This document shows, in pieces, positions 1 to 40,979 of a stretch of DNA of 40,979 nt. The translations under genes were made by a program, and so were the position numbers. The notes below the pieces were generated by a model, which did not search any database, was not told the origin of the DNA, and saw only the letters and a program-made list of their open reading frames with translations. The stretch is from a virus: positions 1 through 40,979 of IMG/VR virus record IMGVR_UViG_3300027969_000189. One strand, given 5' to 3'. Each line of letters opens with the position of its first letter. Position 1 is the stretch's first letter.

Positions 1-302
1 AGTTTTAGGGCGCTTTCATTATCGCCACAAACTTGCCCAATTATAACGCTAACTCCTAGTTTATTAAAGGGATAATCGAAAGCCGCCCACAGCAAATCTC
101 GACTCATCCAATTTACTTCACCTACTGCCGCAATGTGCATTTGGCACGCTTTTGGCATAAAACTACAAAACCCTACTACTGCTGCTAAATTACCATCTAC
201 TTCTTGACCTATACATACTGTTTCTAAAGGCAAAGGGTGGTTCATCATTCTGACTAGCCAATCCCCTAAATACTGTTGGTTTTCTGTAGTTACTTTACGC
301 AA
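1..302 (-). CDS. GNAT-fold virion-associated protein, partial (left copy)
   Basis: Only the first 100 or so residues are present; the gene runs off the window at base 1. The start is TTG at 302-300, preceded by a GGAGG Shine-Dalgarno sequence about 10 bases upstream and abutting the stop of the hub gene (TAA at 305-303). The protein matches the complete 147-aa copy at 35603-36046 with about 13 differences in 101 residues. The family resembles GNAT acyltransferase-fold proteins encoded beside tail genes, such as the T7 gp13 type; enzymatic activity is not shown. Confidence 0.8.
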   Translation of the reverse strand, partial: MRKVTTENQQYLGDWLVRMMNHPLPLETVCIGQEVDGNLAAVVGFCSFMPKACQMHIAAVGEVNWMSRDLLWAAFDYPFNKLGVSVIIGQVCGDNESALK

Positions 303-2078: not shown

Positions 2079-2986
2079 GAGCCATAACCTGTGTCTGGGA
2101 TGTTAGCGTAACCAATAAGCACTTTAGATGGGTAAGGTGCAAATGATAGATTTGGCGCACCTTTGTCGTTAGCTTTAGCAACTGACAAAAAGCGTTGGTA
2201 ATCTTGCATTAAAGCAGTAGTGTCAAATGACTTAATTTGGAAGTATTTAAGTTTAGTAGCCAAAACCATAATACGGTCATCTAAAACTGTAGTGTCTGTG
2301 TCAGCAGTAAAGCTATTCTTTACAGCGCCAGCAGCGCTTCTTGCCCAACCTTTTGAACGATATTCCCAACCCAAATACTCTTGGGTATTCATAATAGGCC
2401 ATATCTGGAATTGGTTATCTAGTATTCTCCAGCGTACTCTAGGGCCTGTAGAGATATAACCAGACTTCAACCATTGCCATTGTTGTGCATCTTCTGGCCC
2501 TAACATTTCCCAATGCTTAGATTTATCCCAATGGGTTCTATTAGTCATTGTTTCAAAATCATCAGGCAAGTCATATGCAGTTTGGGCGCAAACTACTGAT
2601 TGCACTCCATCGCCTGTAGCATATTGACTCATCACTACTACTTTTGTAGTGTTATTGGCGCTTACAACATAAGTGTCTTGAGGAATGTTATAGCCTGATA
2701 ACTGCCATTGGCTATCAACATTGCTTAAATCTGTGCCTGCCGCAAAAGTTAATGTAGCAGAACCATTAACAGTTGTGGCATTGGCGGTTAAAGATTGTGT
2801 GTAGAAACGATATTGCACTTGCAATGCTTGCCAATCGTACTCTTTTAACAAGTCATAACCAGCGCCGTTCATCAAAGCTAATATTTGCTGTACATCCTGT
2901 GAGGTGTTTCCAGCCACATAGGTAGGTACGGCTAAGTTTAGTTCTGCTGTGGTTTGTTGAACCAGTTGCAACATCGTTTGGGACAT
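2075..2986 (-). CDS. Head-tail adaptor / tail accessory protein, left copy
   Basis: A 303-aa protein starting MSQTMLQLVQQTTAEL and containing GYDLLKEYDWQALQ, a pattern typical of adaptor proteins that bind below the portal (P22 gp4 or T7 gp11-like group). Its stop overlaps the start of the hub gene by 4 bases, so the two are probably translationally coupled. The duplicate at 37809-38720 has the same length with roughly 30 substitutions, several clustered in the last third. The family assignment rests on length, gene order and motif impression, not a search. Confidence 0.65.
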   Translation of the reverse strand: MSQTMLQLVQQTTAELNLAVPTYVAGNTSQDVQQILALMNGAGYDLLKEYDWQALQVQYRFYTQSLTANATTVNGSATLTFAAGTDLSNVDSQWQLSGYNIPQDTYVVSANNTTKVVVMSQYATGDGVQSVVCAQTAYDLPDDFETMTNRTHWDKSKHWEMLGPEDAQQWQWLKSGYISTGPRVRWRILDNQFQIWPIMNTQEYLGWEYRSKGWARSAAGAVKNSFTADTDTTVLDDRIMVLATKLKYFQIKSFDTTALMQDYQRFLSVAKANDKGAPNLSFAPYPSKVLIGYANIPDTGYGS

Positions 2987-2987
2987 A

Positions 2988-3611
2988 TTAGGCCTCTACT
3001 ACTTTCGGTTTGCGTGTTTTTGGAGTCTTTTCCGCAACAGCCGCAAGTAGCGCTGACATCTGCTCTTGCATAGCAGCCAGCTTCGCATCTGTTTCAGCCT
3101 TAATTTTAGCATTTTCTTCTTTTAATGCTTGCAATTCTGACTCTCTTTGTGCTACTTCAGCAGAATCGTTAGCTAAATTCAAGAAAGCCTTGGCTTTTAG
3201 ACGGAAATTATGCGGTGACATACCGGCTACCATGCCAATACGCTGTAATTGTTGGTCAGAACAGTCAGCAATAGCTTCTACTGTGTAAAACTTAAGACCA
3301 CGCAATTCTTCAGCTTGGCTACGGGTAACTTGAGGCCATTGGTCTAAAGGTGTGCCAACAATATCTTCTTGCCCTGCTACTTGGTTCTGATAATGCGCCC
3401 ATTGACGGGGAAAACGCTGTTTATGGGACTCTTGTGCGTAAGTGTCGATTTCTGTCAAATTATCGCCAGGAATCATAATCCTTACAAAATCGAATTCTTT
3501 AAAAATTGGTCTACCTGCCTCGTTTGAAGCATCTTCTTGCTTCATACTTTTTTTATAGAATTGGACTGCTAATCGTGAATCTGCGTTTTGAACATCTGAC
3601 TCTATTGCCAT
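2988..3611 (-). CDS. Conserved virion-block protein with C-terminal coiled coil, left copy
   Basis: A 207-aa protein between the capsid genes and the adaptor. Residues 1-140 look globular (WPQVTRSQAEELRGLKFYTVE segment). Residues 145-190 are a Glu/Lys/Ala coiled coil (LQALKEENAKIKAETDAKL), followed by a basic tail KTPKTRKPKVVEA. It starts with ATG at 3611 behind a GGAG-type ribosome site and lies just downstream of a terminator hairpin. Homologues of this shape accompany capsid genes in podovirus-like phages, but I know no established function. A head or assembly-related role is inferred. The duplicate differs at about 8 residues. Confidence 0.6.
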   Translation of the reverse strand: MAIESDVQNADSRLAVQFYKKSMKQEDASNEAGRPIFKEFDFVRIMIPGDNLTEIDTYAQESHKQRFPRQWAHYQNQVAGQEDIVGTPLDQWPQVTRSQAEELRGLKFYTVEAIADCSDQQLQRIGMVAGMSPHNFRLKAKAFLNLANDSAEVAQRESELQALKEENAKIKAETDAKLAAMQEQMSALLAAVAEKTPKTRKPKVVEA

Positions 3612-3641
3612 TTTTAATTCTCCAAAGTGGTTTGGGGTTTA

Positions 3642-3679
3642 TAAAAAAATAAAAGGGACTCCCCTTGTGAGAGAGTCCC
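3642..3679 (-). terminator. Rho-independent terminator after the 99-aa gene (left copy)
   Basis: Inverted repeat GGGACTC (3655-3661) and GAGTCCC (3673-3679). On the minus strand it is followed by a T-rich run (3654-3642). It lies between the 99-aa gene and the 207-aa gene. The right copy keeps the hairpin with different, still complementary bases. Confidence 0.85.
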
Positions 3680-3716
3680 AGTTTTACTAAATATTCAATT
3701 TAAGAGGGTTAACCTA

Positions 3717-4016
3717 TTAAACAGAAGCTGCTGAGAACCAACCATAATCGCCTGAAGCCATTGCGACTGTTGGTGCTAAGTAAGTACCAGCAGAACCAGT
3801 AGCTACGAAAGTCGAAGCGTTGATAGAGCAAGTTGCTGTGTTAGCTGTAATAGCTGCACCTGCAACTGCCCATACATAGCGGCGACCATCAGAAGCAAAA
3901 GTTTCTGCGCCCAAAGGGCCAAAAGTTGGTACGGTTGTACCGTTAGCTGCTAATTCAGTAACGGTTTGGGTATCTACAAGGTCTACACCTGAGATAGGGA
4001 GAGTGCTATATGCCAT
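3717..4016 (-). CDS. Capsid-associated 99-aa protein, possible decoration protein (left copy)
   Basis: A 99-aa Ala/Thr/Gly-rich beta-type protein (motifs GPLGAETFASDGRRYVWAVAGAA, shortened here, and ASGDYGWFSAASV at the end). It is encoded directly downstream of the major capsid gene and set off by terminator-like hairpins on both sides. Small beta proteins in this position are often head-decoration or cement proteins; that is inference. The duplicate at 39450-39749 differs by a single residue (T for A near residue 20), so it is under strong constraint. Confidence 0.65.
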   Translation of the reverse strand: MAYSTLPISGVDLVDTQTVTELAANGTTVPTFGPLGAETFASDGRRYVWAVAGAAITANTATCSINASTFVATGSAGTYLAPTVAMASGDYGWFSAASV

Positions 4017-4035
4017 GATATTTCCTTTATTAATT

Positions 4036-4068
4036 AATTAAACAAAATAAATAGGGGTTTCCCCCTAT
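4036..4068 (-). terminator. Terminator-like hairpin after the major capsid gene (left copy)
   Basis: Perfect 7-bp inverted repeat ATAGGGG (4051-4057) and CCCCTAT (4062-4068) with a 4-base loop. On the minus strand it is followed by TTTATTTTGTTT. It sits between the capsid gene stop and the 99-aa gene start and is conserved in the right copy. Confidence 0.75.
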
Positions 4069-4071
4069 CTA

Positions 4072-5046
4072 TTAAGTTGTCAACAAGCCTTGTAGGAAGC
4101 TGTTAGAAGTAGTCAAGTTACCAGCCCAACCGTATAACTTCACGATTGCATCTTGGTTGATTGACTGACGCTCGCCACCGATAGGTACAAAGTTACGCTC
4201 TTTATGTGGGCGTAAGAAAATGTAGTTAGTGTTCAACAAGTACATATATGTAGCTGTTTCCTGTGAGCCATAACCGCCACCCAATACCACATCAGCAGAT
4301 GTACCGCCACCGTAGAACTTGAGGGAAGCAAAACCAGCAGCGCCAGATTCTTCAGCAGCAATACGCTGAATAGCTTGCAATGCGCCTACATAGTAGGAAT
4401 ACATTGTGTTACCAGCAACAATCAAGTCAGCTTTGTCTGTGCCACGAATCTGTTTGATAGCAGCGTCAGTCATTTTTGACAAGATGTTTGCAGATGTAGC
4501 GCCAGTAGTAATTTGGTTCTGCCAGAAAGTCCATACGGCACGGTTAATACCACCGTAAGTACCAGATGTAGGTGAAACTGCAACCGCAGCGCCTAGACCA
4601 TCCAAGTTCTTACCACCGTTACCAGTACCGTTACCATACAAGTCACCTGAAATACGGTTTAACAAGCGAGCTTCGGAAACTTGCATACGACCATCTAACA
4701 AGTCAATGATTGCTTCTTTAGAGCTGTTTTGCAACATCTCAAGACCAGACATAGTAACTGCGTCAGCGTACTGAGCAATTTTGTATTGTGCAGCAGAAAT
4801 AGGGCTATCTGGAGCAATGTTCAATACTTCATATCCGCTGTAAGAGTTAGCGTTGTTTGTAGCTGAATCGTCATACATGATTTCTTCCAAAATCACATTA
4901 CCACCTGAGAATGGGCGTACATTACCCTTCTGTTGGAGGCGCTGAAGAATAGCGTTGTTTTGTGTTAAGTTGTCTGCCAATTCACCGCTACGAGATTGAA
5001 TCGTGGTAGCGATAATATCGGTGATTGCTGAGTTAGCAAATGCCAT
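4072..5046 (-). CDS. Major capsid protein (left copy)
   Basis: A 324-aa protein directly downstream of the scaffold gene. It opens MAFANSAITDIIATTIQSR and includes NNAILQRLQQKGNVRPFSGG, LNRISGDLYGNGTGNGG, and a C-terminal LYGWAGNLTTSNSF, the usual look of major capsid proteins of podovirus-like phages, presumably HK97-fold. The order scaffold then coat, the high conservation of the duplicate (2 substitutions, Y to F and L to M), and flanking hairpins support a high-abundance structural protein. ATG at 5046 has an AAGGA site upstream. Capsid identity is strong; the fold is known from the family rather than visible. Confidence 0.88.
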   Translation of the reverse strand: MAFANSAITDIIATTIQSRSGELADNLTQNNAILQRLQQKGNVRPFSGGNVILEEIMYDDSATNNANSYSGYEVLNIAPDSPISAAQYKIAQYADAVTMSGLEMLQNSSKEAIIDLLDGRMQVSEARLLNRISGDLYGNGTGNGGKNLDGLGAAVAVSPTSGTYGGINRAVWTFWQNQITTGATSANILSKMTDAAIKQIRGTDKADLIVAGNTMYSYYVGALQAIQRIAAEESGAAGFASLKFYGGGTSADVVLGGGYGSQETATYMYLLNTNYIFLRPHKERNFVPIGGERQSINQDAIVKLYGWAGNLTTSNSFLQGLLTT

Positions 5047-5059
5047 GATTATTATCCTT

Positions 5060-5081
5060 AAAAAAATGTGCCAAAATTGGC
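5060..5081 (-). terminator. Terminator-like hairpin between scaffold and capsid genes (left copy)
   Basis: Perfect palindrome GCCAA (5070-5074), two-base loop, TTGGC (5077-5081). On the minus strand it is followed after three bases by seven Ts (5066-5060), just before the capsid ribosome site. It could attenuate read-through from the scaffold gene, or cap the 5' end of a processed capsid mRNA. Confidence 0.55.
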
Positions 5082-5084
5082 TAG

Positions 5085-6143
5085 TTAAACCCTACGACTC
5101 ATTGCTTCGCCTAATCCTTCGGCTATCAATGACCGTCTATCCTTTTTATCTTCTGGATTACTCACTTTTCCACTAGGAGTAGTGGACTTAGGACTAACCG
5201 CAGCAGCCTTAGCCTTCGCTACTTGCTGTGCTTTGATTGTCGTCTGTCTGGCTTCTTTCAAGAGTCTATCTTGTTCTAATGCCCAAACATCGTCATTCAT
5301 ACGCACGGCTTTCTTGTAGGCCGTTTCTAAGTCTTGGGCTTTCCCTAGCTCAAGTAGTTGAGCCATTTCTTCCCTTACCACATCAAAATGCGGGAACTTC
5401 TCCGCATCACTTCTTACTCTTTCAATTTCATTTGTTAAGCGTTGGTTTTCTTCTTGCTGAAACCGACTCTTAATAGATGAAACTTCTTGATTTACCTGAT
5501 TTAACTGGTTCATCAGTTGCTGAGTATATGCGTCTTGTTGTATAGGCGCAACACCTTCGCCATTTAATTGTATACCATAATCTTGTGCAAGTCGCTGAAA
5601 CATTTGAACTTTTTGTTCGTATGGGGCTTTGGTCAAAACCATGTGCGCCCTACCCAAATTATTAATCCATGCAGCAGGGCTAATATTTTGTGCTTGCAAC
5701 TCAGGAATAAAAGGCGCAATAGCTTCTTCGTAACCTCTAGCACGGTCAGCTTCAGCTTTATAAGTGCTTACGCCTTTTTTATACTCAGATTCACGCTGAT
5801 TAGCATATTCAGCAAATTTAGCAAAATCTTCTTTGCTAATCTGTTCGCCAGCTTCCATTTTGTCCCAAATCTGGACATATTCTTTCTTCCAAGTAGATGG
5901 TCTGCTTATAGGCTTTGCTTCTTCCTCCTGCGCCTCATCCTTATCCGCAAATTCAATAGCATCAGCATCTTCGGTAACTTCTTCGTGGTCTTGTGCGCTA
6001 ACTTCCTCTTTAGCGGACTCCTCGGAAATATCGTCTTTAACCACCTCAATGTCTTTTTCGATTGGTGCTTCAAGAGTGCCTTCCTCTGCTGCGTCTAAAG
6101 CAGCTTCTAATAAATCTCTACGGTCTAGTTGTTCTTCTGACAT
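5085..6143 (-). CDS. Capsid scaffolding protein
   Basis: A 352-aa, highly charged protein immediately upstream of the capsid gene. The N-terminal 80 residues are very acidic (runs of E and D). The middle is predicted alpha-helical and Gln/Glu-rich (SIKSRFQQEENQRLTNEIER), and the C-terminus is basic (DKKDRRSLIAEGLGEAMSRRV). That acidic start, helical middle and basic coat-binding tail is the usual composition of scaffolds that nucleate procapsids and exit before DNA packaging. No protease signature is seen, so scaffold release rather than self-cleavage is likely. The last 162 bases are repeated exactly at the window end. Confidence 0.82.
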   Translation of the reverse strand: MSEEQLDRRDLLEAALDAAEEGTLEAPIEKDIEVVKDDISEESAKEEVSAQDHEEVTEDADAIEFADKDEAQEEEAKPISRPSTWKKEYVQIWDKMEAGEQISKEDFAKFAEYANQRESEYKKGVSTYKAEADRARGYEEAIAPFIPELQAQNISPAAWINNLGRAHMVLTKAPYEQKVQMFQRLAQDYGIQLNGEGVAPIQQDAYTQQLMNQLNQVNQEVSSIKSRFQQEENQRLTNEIERVRSDAEKFPHFDVVREEMAQLLELGKAQDLETAYKKAVRMNDDVWALEQDRLLKEARQTTIKAQQVAKAKAAAVSPKSTTPSGKVSNPEDKKDRRSLIAEGLGEAMSRRV

Positions 6144-14456: not shown

Positions 14457-14777
14457 ATGACTAAAAAACAAGCAGACCAAGAGAACGCAAGAGTAGAGTT
14501 AGACAAGATATTGCGTGACATCAATACAGACACAATCTATACAGTTTTACGCCATGTAAGCTCAAGTCGTATGCAAAGAGAGATTAGCGTAAAGATGATA
14601 GATGCAGGTCGAATCATCCATCTAGATTATTTAGTGTCTACAGCTTTAGGAATGAAGCAAGGTAAACACAATGGCATAGTAGTAAAGGGATGTGGAATGG
14701 ATATGGGCTTTCATATTGTTCATAACATCCTTAGAGCTGTTAGTCCATCTAAGCAATATAGACATGAGTGGATTTAA
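14457..14777 (+). CDS. Small conserved phage protein, function unknown (106 aa)
   Basis: First gene of the plus-strand small-protein operon, with a strong AAGGGGA ribosome site. The protein begins with a charged helix (KKQADQENARVELDKILRDI), then a mixed region with GIVVKGCGMDMGFHIVHNIL. No motif with catalytic meaning is seen. Such proteins are common in early regions of aquatic phages; the position next to the divergent control region suggests early expression. Confidence 0.6.
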   Translation: MTKKQADQENARVELDKILRDINTDTIYTVLRHVSSSRMQREISVKMIDAGRIIHLDYLVSTALGMKQGKHNGIVVKGCGMDMGFHIVHNILRAVSPSKQYRHEWI

Positions 14778-14779
14778 TC

Positions 14780-14869
14780 ATGACTAATCTACAGGCAATG
14801 GCTTTATCTATTCTTTTGGCGGGATTTTTATACTTTATTTGGTATCTAACTGCCATACATTACATTTAA
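14780..14869 (+). CDS. 29-aa single-span membrane microprotein
   Basis: ATG at 14780, two bases after the previous stop, with 29 codons. The sequence is MTNLQAMALS followed by a hydrophobic run ILLAGFLYFIWYLTAI, one membrane helix. There is no strong ribosome site of its own, so translation would depend on coupling with the upstream gene. Too short for homology; support is position and hydrophobicity. Confidence 0.4.
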   Translation: MTNLQAMALSILLAGFLYFIWYLTAIHYI

Positions 14870-14912
14870 ACGCATTACACGGGCTTTTTTAACTGTTTTA
14901 TAAGGGGATAAC

Positions 14913-15284
14913 ATGATTACTAGCACTTTTACCTACGGCAACAATGTAAAGAACTTAGACGATTGGCAGAAAGATGCTAATCCTTGGACTATTACGCTTA
15001 AAAATGGGACTAAAAAAATGACAGTTCCATATTTCACAGGTCAAGCTGTTGAGATGATTAAAACCGAAGATGTTTTATGGTGTTTAGTATCTGATGCCAA
15101 TATGACTGCGGATGGCTTTGACTGGTTTTGTAGCTGTTATGGATATAGCGATGACAGCAGAAAAGCGGAAACACTCTATAAGCAATGTGAGCAAACAAGG
15201 CGCAAGCTAGAGAAGTTTTTAGGGGGTTCTTTTGCCGAAATTATGGCAATGGATGAAGGTGAAATCAATGAATTATGCAAATAA
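14913..15284 (+). CDS. Conserved phage protein, function unknown (123 aa)
   Basis: A 123-aa protein with TFTYGNNVKNLDDWQKDANPWTITL at the N-terminus, TVPYFTGQAVEM in the middle and an aromatic/Cys patch GFDWFCSCYGYSDDSRKAETLY, then a helical, acidic end. Good ribosome site AAGGGGA before ATG. The Trp/Cys-rich patch and acidic tail are unusual, but I recognise no named family. It is followed nine bases later by the 63-aa gene. Confidence 0.6.
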   Translation: MITSTFTYGNNVKNLDDWQKDANPWTITLKNGTKKMTVPYFTGQAVEMIKTEDVLWCLVSDANMTADGFDWFCSCYGYSDDSRKAETLYKQCEQTRRKLEKFLGGSFAEIMAMDEGEINELCK

Positions 15285-15293
15285 GGGGTTTAT

Positions 15294-15485
15294 ATGTACG
15301 CTATTCGATTAAATAACGAGCCTGTATGGTTTACAGATGGGGAAGAGGAGTTATTCCACACAGAGAGCCACGCAATAGAGGCAATTAATGTAGAAATTAT
15401 GGTTTGCGAAGAGGCTGTAAAAGCTGGATACATGGAAGACGCTGGCGGATTTGAAGACTATCGAATTATCAAAATAGGGGAATAA
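15294..15485 (+). CDS. Small acidic protein, function unknown (63 aa)
   Basis: A 63-aa acidic protein (VWFTDGEEELFHTESHAIEAIN), with a ribosome site AAGGGG before the ATG. It is tightly packed between neighbours of the same operon. No recognisable motif. Small acidic early proteins in phages can be inhibitors of host enzymes, but nothing in the sequence proves this here. Confidence 0.5.
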   Translation: MYAIRLNNEPVWFTDGEEELFHTESHAIEAINVEIMVCEEAVKAGYMEDAGGFEDYRIIKIGE

Positions 15486-15488
15486 AAA

Positions 15489-15662
15489 ATGATTCATGCA
15501 AACTTAATTACCTATCACCGCAAGCCTACATCTTACGAAATCAAATTCGGGCATGGTGCTACCCATTACAAAGACTTTAAGCGCTCACAATGTACTAAAC
15601 CTAATGGATGTCGCAAACAATGGCTAATTTGCCCTGTTGACGGCTTACGCTATTACTACTAA
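15489..15662 (+). CDS. 57-aa basic protein with three Cys residues
   Basis: ATG at 15489, three bases after the previous stop; GGGGAATAAAA upstream is a suitable ribosome site. The protein is basic and aromatic (TYHRKPTSYEIKFGHGATHYKDF) with Cys residues at about 35, 41 and 48, ending GLRYYY. A metal site is conceivable but Cys spacing is not diagnostic. Gene support comes from the clean operon fit. Confidence 0.5.
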   Translation: MIHANLITYHRKPTSYEIKFGHGATHYKDFKRSQCTKPNGCRKQWLICPVDGLRYYY

Positions 15663-15671
15663 GGGGGATTT

Positions 15672-15836
15672 ATGACACAAGAAAAGAGACTTCAAGAGGT
15701 CAAAGAGCTGATTTGGGCTATAGAAAGAGACTTAGACCCTTATGAGCGTGGCGATTCAATGAATTATTCGGGTTACATGATGGAAAACGCATTAGACCTA
15801 AAAAACGCAGTATTTAATCTACTTAAAGGGGAATAA
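15672..15836 (+). CDS. 54-aa helical protein
   Basis: ATG at 15672 with GGGGGA seven bases upstream; stop TAA at 15834-15836, followed four bases later by the next gene. The protein looks like two amphipathic helices (EKRLQEVKELIWAIERDL and GYMMENALDLKNAVFNLLKGE). No family recognised. It fits the chain of short coupled genes in this operon. Confidence 0.5.
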   Translation: MTQEKRLQEVKELIWAIERDLDPYERGDSMNYSGYMMENALDLKNAVFNLLKGE

Positions 15837-15839
15837 ACC

Positions 15840-16097
15840 ATGACTACAAAACAACCAAAGACCAAGCCATTGACTAAGGTTCAACAGCTTGAAAGGCAAA
15901 TAGGCAATTTAGAGGAGGCTATTTATATGGCTTATAACGATACAGACGAATTGTTTGGCCCTTTGTATCTCATTATTCAAGAATTAGACAAGCCTGACTG
16001 TAATCGCTATATGGTTAAAAAATCTGTACAGGCTTTAAGGTCATTGCTTATAGGTAATCAAACAATGATGATGGAATGTGCTGGGCTTGAATATTAA
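15840..16097 (+). CDS. 85-aa helical protein, function unknown
   Basis: A basic N-terminus (TTKQPKTKPLTKVQQLERQIGNLEE) leads into a coiled-coil-like helix, then GPLYLIIQELDKPDCNRYMVKKSVQALRSLLI in shortened form. It is the last gene before a clear rho-independent terminator at 16111, so it closes the operon begun at 14457. No enzyme motif. Confidence 0.55.
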   Translation: MTTKQPKTKPLTKVQQLERQIGNLEEAIYMAYNDTDELFGPLYLIIQELDKPDCNRYMVKKSVQALRSLLIGNQTMMMECAGLEY

Positions 16098-21689: not shown

Positions 21690-21867
21690 GCGAACCTAGC
21701 CTACCTAGGTTTGCCTTCAAATGCTTCCATTGAGGAATCGCATCACCCGACAGTCTTGCATGGTATAGGCACTATCTTCGCCACCTATATTGCGCTGTTT
21801 CAACCATTACCCCCAGTAGCGCTTTTAATCCTATCCCCTGGTATGTCGTTAGAGCCTCGAGATAGGA
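21690..21867 (-). ncRNA. Densely folded 3' region downstream of the repressor, possible structured RNA
   Basis: No gene is found in 21514-21875 (362 bases). Read on the minus strand there are five successive stems: 21861-21867 with 21829-21835 (7 bp), 21818-21822 with 21792-21796 (5 bp), 21784-21789 with 21764-21769 (6 bp), a bulged 8-bp stem at 21721-21743, and a 10-bp stem (one G-T pair) at 21690-21714 with a 5-base loop. Some may arise by chance, but the density is high. It could be a 3' UTR structure, a small RNA or DNA cruciforms at an origin. Confidence 0.4.
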
Positions 21868-21875
21868 AGGTGATT

Positions 21876-22154
21876 CTACTCCTCGTCTAAATCCTGTTGC
21901 AAGCCAAATGCGTTGTTTTTTAGCAACTCAGGCCAAATAAAATGCCATGTTCCTGGAAACATATCTTGCCGTGTTACTAAACCCTTACTTTCTTTTTCAA
22001 TTCTTGCGGCAAGCATTAAAAGTTTTCCATGAGGAATACCATTATCACGCCATTGGGCTACAGATGCAGATGAAACTTTACAAATCCTAGCAACTTTGTT
22101 AGTGCCACCAAGCAAATCAAGAATTGCTGATTCAGATATTTTTAATTTGTTCAT
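21876..22154 (-). CDS. Cro/YdaS-like transcriptional repressor
   Basis: 92 aa. AILDLLGGTNKVARICKVSSASVAQWRDNGIP is a helix-turn-helix of the YdaS/Cro type (recognition helix around SSASVAQWRDNG), followed by RIEKESKGLVTRQDMFPGTWHFIWPEL, the family's usual end. Such proteins repress the opposite operon. The ATG at 22154 has no Shine-Dalgarno site, whereas an extended -10 (TGCTAAGAT, minus strand 22169-22161) ends seven bases upstream. The mRNA is therefore probably leaderless, as for lambda cI from PRM. Confidence 0.75.
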   Translation of the reverse strand: MNKLKISESAILDLLGGTNKVARICKVSSASVAQWRDNGIPHGKLLMLAARIEKESKGLVTRQDMFPGTWHFIWPELLKNNAFGLQQDLDEE

Positions 22155-22245: not shown

Positions 22246-22264
22246 GCCATTTAAGGGGATTTAT

Positions 22265-23359: not shown

Positions 23360-23379
23360 ATGCAAATAAGGGGAAATTT

Positions 23380-24126
23380 ATGTCACAACATTGGTATTGC
23401 GCCAAAACAGGCGAAACACGCTATACAACCATTGGCAAAAACGGAAAAGAAAGAAACACTACACTCAGGGATGCCAAAGCAAACCCAGGTACACTTGTCC
23501 CAAGCGTATCTACAATTAATGGACAATTATCAAAAGATGGCCTTAATACATGGTTGCAATCTGAAGCCATAAAAGCTGCCGCAGAAAACCCAAGGGGCGC
23601 AGAAGAAACCGAAAAAGAGTATGTAGATAGAATTTTGGTTCTTGCCAAGCAAAAATCCCAAGAAGCCATGACTAGGGGTACTCTTATACATGACTTCATA
23701 GAAGCGTTCTACAACCAAGAATATATGCCAGAGATGCCAGCGTATGTCCGTAAGGTAGATGAGGCCATCACAGCCCATTTTGGCACTCAGCTATGGATTC
23801 CAGAACAGTCTTTAGTCAACCAAGAAGGTTATGGCGGTAAGTGCGATTTATATGCCAAGCCTAAGCATGATTTCAATGGGGTCGTAATTGACTTTAAAAC
23901 TACGGAGAAATCCCCTGGTGATTTAACACCCTACCTAGAGCATACACTACAGTTAGCAGCTTACAGAGAGGTTTTAGCCCCTGCTGCACGATGCGCCAAT
24001 GTTTACATTAATGGCACAACTAATGAAGTAGCAATTTACGAACATAGCGAACAAGACATCAGAGATGGGTATGAGATGTTCTTATCGTTGCTCAAAATAT
24101 ACAAACTCAAAACTGGGTTAAACTAA
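23380..24126 (+). CDS. PD-(D/E)XK exonuclease (Cas4/YqaJ/RecB-like)
   Basis: 248 aa. Motif I at H104 (RGTLIHDFIEAF), then GKCDLYAK (D156), VIDFKTTEK (D171, K173) and QLAAYRE (Q191) form the RecB-type nuclease core, the pattern expected of phage 5'-3' exonucleases working with Erf or RecT annealases. ATG at 23380 follows AAGGGGAAA. It is the last gene before a structured intergenic region. The full catalytic set is present, so it should be active. Confidence 0.85.
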   Translation: MSQHWYCAKTGETRYTTIGKNGKERNTTLRDAKANPGTLVPSVSTINGQLSKDGLNTWLQSEAIKAAAENPRGAEETEKEYVDRILVLAKQKSQEAMTRGTLIHDFIEAFYNQEYMPEMPAYVRKVDEAITAHFGTQLWIPEQSLVNQEGYGGKCDLYAKPKHDFNGVVIDFKTTEKSPGDLTPYLEHTLQLAAYREVLAPAARCANVYINGTTNEVAIYEHSEQDIRDGYEMFLSLLKIYKLKTGLN

Positions 24127-24131
24127 TCAAC

Positions 24132-24262
24132 GGGGGCGAGGTGATTTTCCCCTTTTCACCTACCATGTCTGTCCGTGCAGACCGCCCCCACCCTATTCGG
24201 GTGTTAAGCCGCCAATGTAGGATGCAGTAATTGGGTAATTTTGCGGCTTTCTCGCCCATTGG
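24132..24262 (+). ncRNA. Three-way-junction-like structured intergenic RNA candidate
   Basis: P1 GGGGGCG (24132-24138) pairs with CGCCCCC (24183-24189). Inside it P2 AGGTGA (24139-24144) pairs with TCACCT (24156-24161), and P3 GTCTG (24167-24171) pairs with CAGAC (24178-24182), giving a closed three-way junction with one 5-base linker. After it come P4 CACCC/GGGTG (24189-24193 and 24199-24203) and P5 AGCCGC/GCGGCT (24207-24212 and 24243-24248) followed by TTCTC. CCAATG (24212-24217) can also pair with CATTGG (24257-24262), crossing P5. It begins just after the exonuclease stop. Confidence 0.5.
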
Positions 24263-24294
24263 TAGCAACTGCCAAATACAACCCTGTCTCTTAT

Positions 24295-24323
24295 TTGCAA
24301 CACATAGGGTTTATCCCTATATT
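24295..24323 (+). promoter_or_regulatory. Promoter with embedded operator-like dyad
   Basis: TTGCAA (24295-24300), a 17-base spacer and TATATT (24318-24323). The spacer holds a perfect dyad ATAGGG (24304-24309) and CCCTAT (24315-24320) around TTTAT. It is well placed to drive the genes from 24369 and to be repressed by a protein bound between the -35 and -10. Confidence 0.6.
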
Positions 24324-24368
24324 AAAGTGCATGAAATTTTAAGAAACTAAGTTTTTAAGGGGAAACAA

Positions 24369-24611
24369 ATGAAACAAGACATAACTTATACAGTCAAAAA
24401 ATGGTGTATTGACTATTCAGACCTTATTCCACGCCATATTGGCAAATACAAAGTAATGCCATTGAATGAAAAAGAATGGTATTTCCAGACTGAAGAAGAA
24501 AACCAAGACGGTTATGCTGTTTATGAAAACGACAAAATAGTTTACTTGTCATCAGACCCATATGAAGCAAGCAATGAATTTGATAACCTAGTTTATTTGG
24601 AAGCCGAATAA
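24369..24611 (+). CDS. 80-aa acidic protein, function unknown
   Basis: Acidic, aromatic protein (KKWCIDYSDLIPRHIGKYKVM and DGYAVYENDKIVYLSSDPYEAS). ATG at 24369 follows AAGGGGA. Its TAA overlaps the next ATG. No motif recognised; the C-terminal YENDKIVYLSSDPYEA segment is common in small phage proteins. Confidence 0.55.
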   Translation: MKQDITYTVKKWCIDYSDLIPRHIGKYKVMPLNEKEWYFQTEEENQDGYAVYENDKIVYLSSDPYEASNEFDNLVYLEAE

Positions 24612-24877
24612 TGGAAAAATTTGGGCGCAGAGTATTTGAGGGTGAAGCCCCATGCGACAAGTGTGACCAGGCGCTTGACTGTAAAGAATATGAATGGGCT
24701 TGCAGAGCATTTAGCTTTTATGTACTTCATGGCACATTTGAAGAGTACACAGTCAGACACCCTACTAGGGGTATGTTTAATAAGATATTTAAAGAAGATG
24801 ATAAGGCACTTAAAAACTACCTTAAATCAGTTAAATCTAAAGAAGAAATGGGGATACATGACCTCTTTGAAGAATGA
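24611..24877 (+). CDS. 88-aa protein with N-terminal Cys motif
   Basis: Contains CDKCDQALDCKEYEWACRAF: four or five Cys residues spaced like a small metal-binding ribbon, followed by GTFEEYTVRHPTRGMFNKIF and a charged helix. This type occurs in many phages of aquatic bacteria, with unknown role. The start overlaps the upstream stop (TAATG). Confidence 0.6.
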   Translation: MEKFGRRVFEGEAPCDKCDQALDCKEYEWACRAFSFYVLHGTFEEYTVRHPTRGMFNKIFKEDDKALKNYLKSVKSKEEMGIHDLFEE

Positions 24878-35602: not shown

Positions 35603-36046
35603 TCATTCTCCTCTTGCTGTTCTTAAAGGGCATTTGATGTCGAGCCAACGACAATCTTCACGCCTCATAGCCATAATCACTAAATCTCCATCCATATGAG
35701 CATCAGGGATTTCGGCTATCACTTTAAAACCAAGGTGTCGGTTCAATCTAAGGGCATCTTCATTACTGCCACATATTTGCCCAATTATAACGCTAACTCC
35801 TAGTTTATTAAAGGGATAATCGAAAGCCGCCCACAACAAATCTCGATTCATCCAATTTACTTCACCTACTGCCGCAATGTGCATTTGACACGCTTTTGGC
35901 ATAAAACTGCAATATCCTACTACAGCTACTAAATTACCGTCTATTTCTTGCCCTATACATACTGTTTCTGTAGGCAATGGGTAATTCATCATTCTTACTA
36001 GCCAATCACCCATATACTGCTGATTTTTAGTAGTAACTTGCCTCAA
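35603..36046 (-). CDS. GNAT-fold virion-associated protein, complete (right copy)
   Basis: 147 aa. VCIGQEIDGNLVAVVGYCSFMP, SVIIGQICGSNEDALRLNRHLGF and a C-terminal DGDLVIMAMRREDC show the GNAT-like beta-alpha arrangement and the RxLGF acetyltransferase motif. In T7-like phages a related protein (gp13) is an internal virion protein, which fits its place between tail and ejection genes. The start is TTG at 36046-36044, overlapping the stop of the hub gene in a TTGA junction. Catalysis is uncertain. Confidence 0.65.
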   Translation of the reverse strand: MRQVTTKNQQYMGDWLVRMMNYPLPTETVCIGQEIDGNLVAVVGYCSFMPKACQMHIAAVGEVNWMNRDLLWAAFDYPFNKLGVSVIIGQICGSNEDALRLNRHLGFKVIAEIPDAHMDGDLVIMAMRREDCRWLDIKCPLRTARGE

Positions 36047-37812
36047 ATTACCCCACCTCTTTCCATTACATAGTCAGTTGAAGCCCAATGCAATTCAATG
36101 CCTTGTGATGCCACATTGATGTTGACTGAGCCACTAAACCCTAATCCTGTGACGCCTTGCCAAATTTTAGTAGTAGTAAGACCACCACCCCAATTTGCAC
36201 CATCCCATTTAGAAGAATCCCAAATACCAGTATTAACAATATTTGGGTTAAATGCTATTTGATTAGTAAGTGGCTGTGTGTCAAAATCTACGCTAATACC
36301 ACATAAAACAGTTGGCAAACCGTTATCTGTCTGTAGGATAGGGCGTACTAAAGTAAATCGTTTTGTTTGTCCTGGTGAATCAAAATAAGAGTAGGCTTGC
36401 TGTGCAGTTGCAACAATGTTACTACCAGCATCTGCATTAGTGTCGTAAAACTTACCTACAAAACCATTGCCACCAAAGTGCATATCTGAATCACCGCTTA
36501 CTTCCCAACAATAAGCCTCAATACCTGTAAATCTGGCCCATGACTTAGTAATAGTGTGCATTACATACTGCTCCATACCATTATTGGTAGGAATAGATAA
36601 AATAAGCATATTTTCAGAAGCATAATAATTAATTTGCCATCCGTCTAAAGCATAAAAGTTAGTAGCTGCTTGACTTACAGCAAAATAAATCTTATCTGTA
36701 AGATTAATTCTAGGGTCTAAACGGCTAGATTGCAACGCAGAAGCTAATGGCACAAGTCCATCTTGAGTTAAAAGCAATAAATCGCCCGCCCATTTAAAAA
36801 AGCAGCGTCTATTAAATGTTTGTCCTAATTGCCATACGCCTTTAAGAAGCCAAGTTTCTGCCACATTGGGGTCTGTACCGTTATAAACAATGACTTCGCC
36901 CATAGAAGTTACAAATACTGCATAGTCATCAGCGCCTTGTCCAGCATCTAATGTCCATGTACCCATAGCTTGTAAATAACCAGCATTGCGAGCAATTCCG
37001 CCAAAATAAAGCGGCAAAGCAGCACCACCAATAGAGTCTACTGGCAAATACCAGCAAGTCATACTGTCTTTTTCTGTGAAATACAGTCTGTTTTTAAACA
37101 AATTGACATTAATAAATTTACTTGAATCAACGCCAGTAATACCGATAGTAGTGTATGTTCCTACTACAGTAGCATTGGCAGCAGGCGCAGTAGCCATTGT
37201 GTAAGTAAAAGTTGTTGCACCAGTTACTGTAATTACATAAGTACCGTTATAGTTTGCTTCAGTAGCACCAGAAATAGTAACTCTGTTTTTTGAAATTAAA
37301 CCATGAGCAACAGCAGTAGTTACAGTAGCAGTTAAATTACCTGCGCCACCTCTTGTAATTGTTGTTATTGTTTGTGCGGTTGTTGTTGTGGCAATTTTAA
37401 ACCAGCGTGTGCCATCAAATACAAGGGTAGGGTCAGAACCATTACAAGCTACTAAAAAGTGTCCTGCTTGATTTGTAAGGTTTACATGCTGAAATTTGTC
37501 GCTAGTTAAACCTGTAAAATACTCTACAGCCGTACTTGGCTTAGAGTCATAAATCTTAGTGCCAGCAGCAGCAAATAGTTTATATCCTGAATTCTCTGTG
37601 TAATTCATTAAAGACTTTACTTTTCCAGCAATGCCAGTAGAAGCCTTTGTATAGCCTTTTCTTAAAGTGACATCAGTAGGAGTAGGAAAGAAATTGATTA
37701 ACTGCACCGCATCTAGCGGTTGCATATTAGCCAATGAATCCCTAGCGTTCCAACCTCCTATGGGCGATGCCATAGAGGTAGTAGTTGCCCTACGCTGCTG
37801 TGGGGTTGTCAT
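36043..37812 (-). CDS. Tail hub / DNA-stabilisation-type protein, right copy
   Basis: 589 aa, counterpart of 303-2078 with two residues fewer and many substitutions, especially in the inserted Thr/Gly module and in the middle. Conserved blocks include GGWNARDSLANM, TLRKGYTK, RRCFFKW, LLLLTQDGLVPLASALQSS and LVRPILQTDNGLPTVLC. The pattern of conserved framework and variable module suggests a receptor-facing or strain-variable surface. Confidence 0.7.
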   Translation of the reverse strand: MTTPQQRRATTTSMASPIGGWNARDSLANMQPLDAVQLINFFPTPTDVTLRKGYTKASTGIAGKVKSLMNYTENSGYKLFAAAGTKIYDSKPSTAVEYFTGLTSDKFQHVNLTNQAGHFLVACNGSDPTLVFDGTRWFKIATTTTAQTITTITRGGAGNLTATVTTAVAHGLISKNRVTISGATEANYNGTYVITVTGATTFTYTMATAPAANATVVGTYTTIGITGVDSSKFINVNLFKNRLYFTEKDSMTCWYLPVDSIGGAALPLYFGGIARNAGYLQAMGTWTLDAGQGADDYAVFVTSMGEVIVYNGTDPNVAETWLLKGVWQLGQTFNRRCFFKWAGDLLLLTQDGLVPLASALQSSRLDPRINLTDKIYFAVSQAATNFYALDGWQINYYASENMLILSIPTNNGMEQYVMHTITKSWARFTGIEAYCWEVSGDSDMHFGGNGFVGKFYDTNADAGSNIVATAQQAYSYFDSPGQTKRFTLVRPILQTDNGLPTVLCGISVDFDTQPLTNQIAFNPNIVNTGIWDSSKWDGANWGGGLTTTKIWQGVTGLGFSGSVNINVASQGIELHWASTDYVMERGGVI

Positions 37813-38720
37813 GAACCGTAACCAGTATCAGGGATATTAGCGTAGCCAATAAGCACTTTGCTTGGGTATGGGGCAAATGACAGGTTAGGTGCGCCTTTAT
37901 CATTGGCTTTAGCTACAGACAAATAACGCTGATATTCTTGAGAAACAGCAGTAGTGTCAAAGCCTTTAATAGCCCAATACTTCATTTTTGTGCTTAAAAC
38001 AATGATACGGTCATCTAAAACTGTAGTATCTGTGTCAGCAGTAAAGCTATTCTTAATTGCGCCATCTGCGCCTCTAGCCCATCCTTTTGACCTGTATTCC
38101 CACCCTAAATACTCTTGGGTATTCATAATAGGCCAAATACAGAATTGGTTATCTAGTATTCTCCAACGCACACGAGGTCCTGTAGAGATATAACCAGACT
38201 TTAACCATTGCCATTGTTGGGCATCTTCTGGCCCTAACATTTCCCAATGCTTAGATTTATCCCAATGGGTTCTGTTGGTCATTGTTTCAAAGTCAAGTGG
38301 CAAATCATAGGCTGTTTGGGCGCAAACTACTGATTGCACACCATTTCCTGTTGCCATTTGACTCATTACAACCACTTTTGTGGTGTTATTGGCACTTACA
38401 ACATAAGTATCTTGAGGAATGTTATAGCCTGATAACTGCCATTGGCTTGTAACACCGCTTAAATCTGTGCCAGACTCAAAAGTTAATGTAGTAGAACCAT
38501 TAACAGTTGTAGCATTGGCGGTTAAAGATTGCGTGTAAAAACGATATTGCACTTGTAATGCTTGCCAATCGTATTCTTTTAGCAAGTCATAACCAGAACC
38601 ATTCATTAAAGCAAGAATCTGCTGTACATCTTGGCTAGTGTTACCAGCTACATAGGTAGGTACAGCCAAGTTTAACTCGGCTGCGGTTTGCTGGACAAGT
38701 TGCAACATCGTTTGGGACAT
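37809..38720 (-). CDS. Head-tail adaptor / tail accessory protein, right copy
   Basis: 303 aa, same length as 2075-2986. Variable positions cluster at residues 75-95 (LTFESGTDLSGVTSQ versus LTFAAGTDLSNVDSQ) and 240-275. Overlaps the hub gene by 4 bases. Intact frame and mostly conservative changes indicate a functional strain variant. Confidence 0.65.
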   Translation of the reverse strand: MSQTMLQLVQQTAAELNLAVPTYVAGNTSQDVQQILALMNGSGYDLLKEYDWQALQVQYRFYTQSLTANATTVNGSTTLTFESGTDLSGVTSQWQLSGYNIPQDTYVVSANNTTKVVVMSQMATGNGVQSVVCAQTAYDLPLDFETMTNRTHWDKSKHWEMLGPEDAQQWQWLKSGYISTGPRVRWRILDNQFCIWPIMNTQEYLGWEYRSKGWARGADGAIKNSFTADTDTTVLDDRIIVLSTKMKYWAIKGFDTTAVSQEYQRYLSVAKANDKGAPNLSFAPYPSKVLIGYANIPDTGYGS

Positions 38721-38721
38721 A

Positions 38722-39345
38722 TTAGGCCTTTACTACTTTCGGTTTGCGTGTTTTTGGAGTCTTTTCCGCAACAGCCGCAAGTAGCGCTGACATTTGTTCT
38801 TGCATAGCTGTCAGCTTCGCATCTGTTTCAGCCTTAATTTTAGCATTTTCTTCCTTTAATGCTTGCAATTCTGATTCTCTTTGTGCTACTTCAGCAGAAT
38901 CATTAGCTAAATTCAAGAAAGCCTTGGCTTTTAGACGGAAATTATGCGGTGACATGCCAGCTACCATTCCAATACGCTGTAATTGCTGGTCAGAACAGTC
39001 TGCAATAGACTCTACTGTGTGGAATTTAAGCCCACGCAATTCTTCGGCTTGGCTACGGGTAACTTGAGGCCATTGGTCTAAAGGTGTACCAACAATATCT
39101 TCATGTCCTGCGGTTTGATTCTGATAGTGCGCCCATTGGCGTGGAAAACGCTGTTTATGGGACTCTTGTGCGTAAGTGTCGATTTCTGTCAAATTATCAC
39201 CAGGAATCATAATTCTTACAAAATCGAATTCTTTAAAAATTGGTCTACCTGCCTCGTTTGAAGCATCTTCTTGCTTCATACTTTTTTTATAGAATTGGAC
39301 TGCTAGTCGTGAATCTGCTCCTTGAATATCGCTTTCTATTGCCAT
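38722..39345 (-). CDS. Conserved virion-block coiled-coil protein, right copy
   Basis: 207 aa. About eight differences from 2988-3611 (such as N9G, Y to H near 109, and final KVVKA versus KVVEA). The coiled coil and basic tail are unchanged. Same ribosome site and same place after a terminator. Confidence 0.6.
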   Translation of the reverse strand: MAIESDIQGADSRLAVQFYKKSMKQEDASNEAGRPIFKEFDFVRIMIPGDNLTEIDTYAQESHKQRFPRQWAHYQNQTAGHEDIVGTPLDQWPQVTRSQAEELRGLKFHTVESIADCSDQQLQRIGMVAGMSPHNFRLKAKAFLNLANDSAEVAQRESELQALKEENAKIKAETDAKLTAMQEQMSALLAAVAEKTPKTRKPKVVKA

Positions 39346-39375
39346 TTTTAATGCTCCTAAGTGGTTAGGGGTTTA

Positions 39376-39412
39376 TAAAAAAGAAAAAGGGCTACCCTTT
39401 TGAGATAGCCCT
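39376..39412 (-). terminator. Rho-independent terminator after the 99-aa gene (right copy)
   Basis: GGGCTA (39389-39394) pairs with TAGCCC (39406-39411), with an A-T pair added outside, followed on the minus strand by a T-rich run. The left copy has GGGACTC/GAGTCCC instead. The stem is conserved while its bases changed on both sides. Confidence 0.85.
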
Positions 39413-39449
39413 AGTTTTACTACATTTTCAATTTAAGAGGGTTAACCTA

Positions 39450-39749
39450 TTAAACAGAAGCTGCTGAGAACCAGCCATAATCGCCTGAAGCCATTGCGAC
39501 TGTTGGTGCTAAGTAAGTACCAGCAGAACCAGTAGCTACGAAAGTCGAAGCGTTGATAGAGCAAGTTGCTGTGTTAGCTGTAATAGCTGCACCAGCGACT
39601 GCCCATACATAGCGGCGACCATCAGAAGCAAAAGTTTCTGCGCCCAAAGGGCCAAAAGTTGGTACGGTTGTACCGTTAGCTGCTAATTCAGCAACAGTTT
39701 GTGTATCTACCAGGTCTACACCTGAGATAGGGAGAGTGCTATATGCCAT
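39450..39749 (-). CDS. Capsid-associated 99-aa protein, right copy
   Basis: Identical to 3717-4016 except one residue (TQTVAEL for TQTVTEL). The near identity alongside more diverged tail genes marks it, like the capsid protein, as strongly constrained. Flanked by the same two hairpins. Confidence 0.65.
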   Translation of the reverse strand: MAYSTLPISGVDLVDTQTVAELAANGTTVPTFGPLGAETFASDGRRYVWAVAGAAITANTATCSINASTFVATGSAGTYLAPTVAMASGDYGWFSAASV

Positions 39750-39768
39750 GATATTTCCTTTATTAATT

Positions 39769-39801
39769 AATTAGACAAAATAAATAGGGGTTTCCCCCTA
39801 T
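39769..39801 (-). terminator. Terminator-like hairpin after the capsid gene (right copy)
   Basis: ATAGGGG (39784-39790), 4-base loop, CCCCTAT (39795-39801), followed on the minus strand by TTTATTTTGTCT. Same as in the left copy with one changed base in the T-run. Confidence 0.75.
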
Positions 39802-39804
39802 CTA

Positions 39805-40779
39805 TTAAGTTGTCAACAAGCCTTGTAGGAAGCTGTTAGATGTAGTCAAGTTACCAGCCCAACCGTATAACTTCACGATTGCGTCTTGGTTGATTGACTG
39901 ACGCTCGCCACCGATAGGTACAAAGTTACGCTCTTTGTGTGGGCGTAAGAAAATGTAATTGGTGTTAAGCATGTACATATAAGTAGCTGTCTCTTGTGAG
40001 CCATAACCACCGCCCAATACTACATCGGCTGAAGTGCCACCACCGTAGAATTTGAGGGAAGCAAAACCAGCAGCGCCAGACTCTTCAGCAGCGATACGCT
40101 GAATAGCTTGCAATGCGCCTACATAGTAAGAATACATTGTGTTACCAGCAACAATTAAGTCAGCCTTGTCTGTGCCACGAATCTGTTTGATAGCAGCGTC
40201 AGTCATTTTTGACAAGATGTTTGCAGAAGTAGCACCAGTAGTGATTTGGTTCTGCCAGAAAGTCCATACAGCACGGTTAATACCACCGTAAGTACCAGAT
40301 GTAGGTGAAACTGCAACAGCAGCGCCTAGACCGTCAAGGTTCTTACCACCGTTACCAGTACCGTTACCATACAAGTCACCAGAAATACGGTTTAACAAGC
40401 GGGCTTCGGAAACTTGCATACGACCATCTAACAAGTCAATGATTGCTTCTTTAGAGCTGTTTTGCAACATCTCAAGACCAGACATGGTAACTGCGTCAGC
40501 GTACTGAGCAATTTTGAACTGAGCAGCAGAAATAGGGCTATCTGGAGCAATGTTCAATACTTCATATCCGCTATAAGAGTTAGCGTTGTTTGTAGCGCTA
40601 TCGTCATACATAATCTCTTCTAAGATTACATTACCGCCTGAGAATGGGCGTACATTGCCCTTCTGCTGGAGGCGCTGAAGAATTGCGTTGTTTTGTGTTA
40701 AGTTGTCTGCCAATTCACCGCTACGAGATTGAATCGTGGTAGCGATAATATCGGTGATTGCTGAGTTAGCAAATGCCAT
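39805..40779 (-). CDS. Major capsid protein (right copy)
   Basis: 324 aa, two residues different from 4072-5046 (F for Y in SAAQFKIAQ, M for L in TYMYMLN). The first 90 or so bases of the gene are identical between copies and silent changes accumulate further on. Same ribosome site and upstream hairpin. Confidence 0.88.
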   Translation of the reverse strand: MAFANSAITDIIATTIQSRSGELADNLTQNNAILQRLQQKGNVRPFSGGNVILEEIMYDDSATNNANSYSGYEVLNIAPDSPISAAQFKIAQYADAVTMSGLEMLQNSSKEAIIDLLDGRMQVSEARLLNRISGDLYGNGTGNGGKNLDGLGAAVAVSPTSGTYGGINRAVWTFWQNQITTGATSANILSKMTDAAIKQIRGTDKADLIVAGNTMYSYYVGALQAIQRIAAEESGAAGFASLKFYGGGTSADVVLGGGYGSQETATYMYMLNTNYIFLRPHKERNFVPIGGERQSINQDAIVKLYGWAGNLTTSNSFLQGLLTT

Positions 40780-40792
40780 GATTATTATCCTT

Positions 40793-40814
40793 AAAAAAAT
40801 GTGCCAAAATTGGC
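40793..40814 (-). terminator. Terminator-like hairpin before the capsid gene (right copy)
   Basis: The GCCAA-AA-TTGGC hairpin (40803-40814) with the adjoining T-run on the minus strand is identical to the left copy. Confidence 0.55.
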
Positions 40815-40817
40815 TAG

Positions 40818-40979
40818 TTAAACCCTACGACTCATTGCTTCGCCTAATCCTTCGGCTATCAATGACCGTCTATCCTTTTTATCTTCTGGATTACTCACTT
40901 TTCCACTAGGAGTAGTGGACTTAGGACTAACCGCAGCAGCCTTAGCCTTCGCTACTTGCTGTGCTTTGATTGTCGTCTG
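40818..40979 (-). CDS. Scaffolding protein, 3' end only (right copy, partial)
   Basis: The last 53 codons and stop of the scaffold gene, identical to 5085-5246. The window ends inside the gene. Nothing distinguishes it from the complete copy; it is an overlap of the map rather than a second functional gene if the genome is circular. Confidence 0.8.
   Translation of the reverse strand, partial: QTTIKAQQVAKAKAAAVSPKSTTPSGKVSNPEDKKDRRSLIAEGLGEAMSRRV

Follow-up and report, generated by a model that had tools for sequence, protein, structure and literature searches.

What lies between the end of the early operon and the following genes in this phage DNA, and what might it do there? The window, by which we mean the whole stretch analysed (40,979 nt), contains a rightward operon in which an ERF-type annealing protein is encoded along with an SSB, with the Shine-Dalgarno (SD) sequence AAGGGGA (22253–22259, + strand) before its first gene. 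The last gene of this operon encodes a PD-(D/E)XK exonuclease of 248 amino acids (23380–24126, + strand; PHROG 298 exonuclease, E = 2e-17; Pfam PDDEXK_1, E = 8e-7). The region of interest is flanked by the exonuclease stop codon on one side and by small genes on the other, and it is not explained by any gene, as a sequence-only reading of this DNA had already stated. That reading had noticed a three-way junction followed by further hairpins and a possible pseudoknot. Beyond this, we found that the 3′ UTR of the exonuclease gene is the site of two separate RNAs, elements A and B, and that the junction presents a loop complementary to the SD sequence of the upstream gene. The two ends of the window (15–5246 and 35759–40979) were 85.6% identical over 5.2 kb; the window is a circular phage genome of ~35.7 kb that was assembled past its start, probably with two strains joined.

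Element A is a three-way junction (24132–24189, + strand) starting 6 nt past the exonuclease stop codon, with the 7, 6 and 5 bp stems exactly where they had first been placed. P1 pairs GGGGGCG (24132–24138) with CGCCCCC (24183–24189), which is followed by ACC here and in nearly all relatives. The P2 hairpin (24139–24161), AGGTGA-TTTTCCCCTTT-TCACCT, consists of a 6 bp stem (24139–24144 with 24156–24161) carrying the C-rich anti-SD loop TTTCCCCTT (24147–24155) on top. The P3 hairpin (24167–24182), GTCTG-TCCGTG-CAGAC, has a stem of 5 bp (24167–24171 with 24178–24182). P1 abuts P2 and P3 abuts P1 with no unpaired bases, and the five bases ACCAU lie between P2 and P3. The predicted fold of the + strand from 24120 to 24275 had a free energy of −55.5 kcal/mol (z = −3.6, one of 200 shuffles being as stable), whereas the minus strand of the same segment was not unusual (z = −1.0).

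Relatives were collected as 80 IMG/VR loci through an exonuclease query and as at least 118 further matches to a DNA pattern for element B; distant exonuclease lineages were added by further protein searches. We refer to the clade whose exonucleases are >70% identical as the main clade. The sequence collections are environmental and redundant, and the SD and start positions are our own assignments. A DNA-level search of named phages gave no match. Where the end of the exonuclease gene was intact, nearly all loci contained a folded element 3–9 nt past the stop codon and then a second conserved element.

Comparison of the first of these elements established that its stems are maintained. In the window subtype of A (14 distinct junctions), 99.2% of cells were paired, and changes on both sides affected 7 pairs and 20 cells compared to 2.9 and 3.8 in shuffles; pairing fell to 44–57% when the partners were slid. 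The commonest subtype, GAGG (16 distinct junctions, P1 of 11 bp), was paired in 100% of cells, with both-side changes in 8 pairs and 26 cells compared to 3.4 and 6.1 in shuffles. Double changes occurred in all three helices of both subtypes. In the window subtype they included GC to CG and CG to UA in P1, three pairs in P2, and GUCUA/UAGAC, GUGUG/CGCAC and GUAUA/UAUAC in P3. Among 38 distinct junctions of several subtypes, the outer seven pairs of P1 were 99% paired versus 78% after random re-pairing of the strands; the automatic parser that provided this set missed some window-type junctions, and the pair counts given above were taken from alignments. The part of A that varied least was the P2 loop, in which UCCCC was kept in the main clade while the stems drifted. 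Chance is ruled out by the relatives, which retain the stems with compensating changes, and the earlier judgement that the arrangement was unlikely by chance is borne out. G-U cells outnumbered A-C cells by 60 to 3 in A and B together, indicating that the functional RNA is the + strand, i.e. the exonuclease strand. We conclude that A is a conserved structured RNA in the 3′ UTR, on the + strand.

A comparison with known families had been suggested, and Rfam 15 matched neither A nor B, whether the window was searched at gathering thresholds, positions 24000–24400 at E up to 10, or the loci of the relatives. An RT-3 match that appeared at permissive E scored 12.7 bits, where the gathering score is 40.5, and was rejected as chance.

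The interval between the exonuclease gene and B was variable among relatives. A hairpin of the form stem-GAAA-...-AGUA-stem-ACC was present there in L002, L022, L024, L044, L047, L068, L088, L149, L171 and others, with compensated variants of its closing stem (GGGC/GCCC, GAGG/CCUC and GACC/GGUC). Its internal loop reads like the sarcin-ricin or bulged-G motif. Two loci, L063 (4817–4889) and L064, carried a tRNA gene between A and B (71.7 bits with the Rfam tRNA model). An open frame was found at or overlapping the exonuclease stop codon in L056, L181, L218, L220 and L232, with A displaced downstream (seen in L095/L220); this frame looks like a homing-endonuclease insertion.

Element B (24199–24284, + strand) is 86 nt long and was represented by 42 distinct sequences. 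It consists of five helices, with P2 crossing the others in an H-type pseudoknot. The pseudoknot that had been proposed from the window was therefore upheld, its P2 (24206–24212 with 24243–24249) being paired in 42 of 42 sequences with double changes in three pairs; what changed is the extent, as the hairpins and pseudoknot belong to a single RNA, separate from A, whose end is at 24284 and not at 24262. P4 pairs UGUA (24216–24219) with UACA (24277–24280), replaced by AACA/UGUU in three sequences and by UUAGA/UCUAA in L197. P5 (24231–24236 with 24254–24259) had the alternatives UUGGGU/ACCCA and GUUAGG/CCUAAC, and its outermost pair is U-U in the window. Over the 42 sequences, 97% of cells were paired, and both-side changes affected 11 pairs and 74 cells versus 4.5 and 19.8 in shuffles; as the counted sequences are related, these shuffle figures do not amount to probabilities. 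Compensatory changes were found in four of the five helices, P3 alone having no double changes, and B has invariant unpaired bases and invariant U4 and AAA stretches.

At least 120 contigs of environmental phages carry B, and two exact patterns for it had no match in 84,980 cellular genomes. Rfam models of small self-cleaving ribozymes did not match it at E up to 10. Judged by these comparisons, B is a new RNA family, absent from Rfam. Of 29 large or related contigs, 26 had a single copy of it and none had a second. Among the 179 loci that we tabulated from the matches listed, B was 3′ of the exonuclease gene in 166 and 4–6 nt past an sprT-like gene in 6; the others were at a contig edge (5) or beside another neighbour (2). 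The gene following B in the sprT context was convergent in 5 of 6 loci. Downstream of both RNAs in the window, between them and the next genes, is a promoter-like site (24295–24323, + strand), TTGCAA-17-TATATT, with the inverted repeat TAGGG TTTAT CCCTA in its spacer; it has 9 of 12 consensus matches, and the count of such sites was not above chance. Because of this site and the convergent genes in the sprT context, B is most unlikely to be a leader of the downstream gene.

B may act as a 3′-end stability or processing signal or as an independent small RNA. The first of these ideas can be stated more narrowly, as a pseudoknot that directs 3′-end processing of, or blocks decay of, the upstream exonuclease or sprT mRNA. 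The 3′-end placement, the knotted fold with its invariant U4 and AAA stretches and the single copy per contig, in 26 contigs with the pattern, would suit a barrier to decay or a signal for processing. However, conservation of the loops exceeds what a passive barrier needs, and these loops would leave room for a binding partner. We consider this role of B a serious possibility, rated somewhat below even. Its invariant AGGAUG resembles the CsrA consensus, which is a lead only; GGA is not common to the subtypes of A. A ribosome decoy or two-codon minigene (AUG CAG UAA in B) was considered and rejected, as the AUG lies in a helix and abuts the only SD-like bases.

We compared the A loop with the start of its own gene. 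The exonuclease start region reads AAGGGGAAATTTATG at 23368, and its SD sequence AAGGGGAAA (23368–23376, + strand) is an exact 9-nt complement of the loop, the pair being UUUCCCCUU / AAGGGGAAA. The predicted duplex has −13.3 kcal/mol versus −7.3 kcal/mol for the same SD with the 16S 3′ end. The identical SD sequence precedes the next gene (start at 24369; SD 24357–24365, + strand) and is likewise complementary to the loop. Throughout the main clade the complementarity was 7–13 nt. Fine-scale covariation of loop and SD within this clade was not beyond chance (549 of 5000 permutations were as high), and one frozen SD choice could be the source of the match there.

Two lineages outside the main clade were more informative. 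In L164, L087 and L205–L210, with an exonuclease 42% identical to that of the window, UCGGGGGAA(U) serves as SD and faces (A)UUCCCCCGA in the loop, giving 9–10 nt of complementarity. In L177 and L200–L203, with an exonuclease 44% identical, an SD of UAGGGGG is matched by CCCCCUA in the loop, giving 7 nt. The exonuclease tree placed L164 and L177 opposite the main clade, amid lineages in which the C-rich loop and the G-rich SD are both absent, both branches being long and their exact places unsure. Exonuclease lineages lacking the loop also lacked a G-rich SD, to the extent that starts were assignable, which is in keeping with joint loss of both partners. A 2 × 2 test left 13 exceptions, in most of which the GAAA/AGUA hairpin had its 3′ stem strand misclassed as a C-rich loop; its p value is inflated by relatedness and carries no weight here. 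A more distant phage, MW202674.1 (ctn9Y15), also has a folded element 3′ of its exonuclease gene, in which UUGUUCCC matches the initiation region GGGAACAA over 8 nt; this is suggestive of a weak fourth lineage, as 38 of 2000 shuffles were as good.

Over all lineages, the mean loop/SD match exceeded that after re-pairing in 4997 of 5000 permutations. Loop:SD duplexes of −13.3, −13.9, −17.8 and −19.2 kcal/mol were reached by 2, 1, 0 and 0 of 300 shuffled SDs, respectively, and pairing of the SDs with the 16S 3′ end (−7.3 to −9.3 kcal/mol) was weaker than the predicted loop:SD pairing. A two-state cofold of the window leader with A, using a model that excludes pseudoknot-type pairing, gave a minimum without loop/SD pairing. 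The comparison shows that loop and SD are complementary and changed together between lineages. Support for co-change is strong in three deep lineages and weak in the fourth; it rests on these, not on variation within the main clade.

The reading that we favour, with moderate confidence, is that the A loop pairs with the SD of its own mRNA and limits exonuclease translation in cis, possibly together with that of other genes in trans, while B is separate. Nascent exonuclease mRNA would be translated until the 3′ UTR is made. Once it is transcribed, A would fold and its loop capture the SD; the resulting duplex is predicted to block 30S binding and end initiation, lowering exonuclease synthesis, and might also mark the mRNA for RNase III. 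On other phage genes with the same G-rich SD, A could act in trans, either while still within its mRNA or after processing to a small RNA. That pairing occurs in the cell, that it represses, and that it does so in cis rather than in trans is what we infer from the comparisons, as is everything proposed for the function of B. If A represses, changing the loop from TTTCCCCTT to TTTGGGGTT would raise output, and a matching change of the SD would restore pairing. A phage would in this way curb a potentially harmful DNA exonuclease through a finished mRNA that silences itself.

Control by an element of this position has a precedent in phage lambda. In int retroregulation, sib is a structured element just downstream of a recombination gene and serves as an RNase III entry site. 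Like sib, A is a folded element just 3′ of a phage recombination gene that it would control; unlike sib, its predicted primary step is pairing with an SD rather than RNase III entry.

The best reading of A is as a possible phage counterpart of the 3′-UTR/SD interaction of the icaR mRNA of Staphylococcus aureus, where UCCCCUG in the 3′ UTR pairs with the SD UAGGGGG, an interaction that was proven and shown to block initiation and mark the mRNA for RNase III (PMC3868564). As in icaR, a C-rich motif is located in the 3′ UTR of the gene that would be regulated and is complementary to the G-rich SD of the same mRNA; the SD of the L177 clade is identical to that of icaR in all seven letters. The phage motif differs in being the hairpin loop of a conserved junction a few nucleotides past the stop codon, whereas the icaR motif is found 260 nt beyond the stop codon, within a long UTR. 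For icaR the function is proven and for A it is inferred, and we do not suggest common ancestry. The S. aureus small RNAs with a UCCC seed, such as RNAIII, also present an unpaired UCCCC hairpin that targets SDs (PMC3868564), whereas A has a likely cis target, another fold and another organism, and is known here from sequence alone. Very few cases of bacterial gene control by pairing of a gene's own 3′ UTR with its SD have been proven in the open-access literature. The wild phages provide rare comparative evidence of this kind, a loop and an SD ~750 nt apart in one mRNA that co-changed in separate lineages.

The main alternative for A is that it is chiefly a trans-acting small RNA, made by processing of the early operon's 3′ end, and silences genes with AAGGGGA ribosome sites. 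The targets proposed would be the early genes at 14457–15840, 21513, 22265 and 24369 together with the exonuclease gene. In loop-bearing phages, 14% of genes have AAGGGG ahead of the start, compared to 1% in loop-free phages, and the window itself has nine such sites ahead of starts, with four genes reaching a 9-nt match; a trans regulon is therefore allowed. Several main-clade genes have the same SD, so that no cis target stands out in that clade, and SD style and loop are co-present or co-absent across phages. UAGGGGG is likewise shared by one to three further genes in the L177 clade. However, a shared SD style may reflect a preference of the clade, and the L164 clade, where complementarity to several mRNAs is absent, matches the exonuclease SD only: in four of its loci this SD ranked first of 12–20 genes, with 9–10 nt versus at most 6 elsewhere. 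This argues, from sequence, that the own mRNA is the original or essential target. We consider a mainly trans-acting A unlikely, though far from negligible. Cis and trans action are not exclusive of each other; icaR also formed dimers in vitro (PMC3868564).

A broader proposal, which we think improbable, is that the slot after the exonuclease gene holds an 'RNA tail' kit of interchangeable folded modules, followed by single-copy B with an active role, which together would time early expression in cis and in trans. The modules would be the SD-matching junctions (at least four subtypes), the GAAA/AGUA hairpin and the tRNA, and B, under the same joint proposal, would be a ribozyme, host-protein binder or small RNA of a new class.

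A might instead do no more than stabilise or terminate the 3′ end of the exonuclease transcript, its C-rich loop being incidental. The very stable GC-rich stem immediately past the stop codon is what such an element would have, and in relatives the same slot holds the GAAA/AGUA internal-loop hairpin or a tRNA (L063/L064). This explanation seems quite unlikely because the loop is better conserved than the rest of A and co-changes with the SD in other lineages, and because no stem with a U run behind it turned up in a scan of 23900–24700. The same scan, with the ACCYUA-like tail of A, speaks against the complex terminator suggested by the sequence-only reading. That the loop binds a protein or ribosomes, or acts as their decoy, instead of pairing with the SD of the phage itself, is very unlikely; neighbouring loops do carry other conserved motifs (UUCAC and AUCACGG), but such a site leaves the co-change to UCGGGGGAA and UAGGGGG unexplained. 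A riboswitch-like leader of the downstream genes, also among the early suggestions, is extremely improbable despite a complex, strongly conserved fold and the invariant unpaired bases of B, since the junction begins so close behind the exonuclease stop, the promoter-like site follows both RNAs, the next gene is convergent in most sprT-context loci and the downstream genes differ between relatives. We thus retain pairing of the A loop with the exonuclease SD as the probable function of A.

A known RNA occurs nearby in the same genomes. RF02932, the Betaproteobacteria-1 RNA, was matched in the window at 21745–21868 on the minus strand (95.9 bits) and also in several relatives. In the opposite early operon it mirrors A and, like A, is a structured phage RNA just past a stop codon, in this case 7 nt past that of a repressor-like gene (21876–22154); its sequence and fold differ from those of both A and B. 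A similar leader, ACAAC..TAGGG...CCCTA..AAGAAACT...TTTAAGGGGA before the start, follows both RNA genes (24283–24365; 21605–21525 on the minus strand), and this repeated leader may be a shared regulated promoter.
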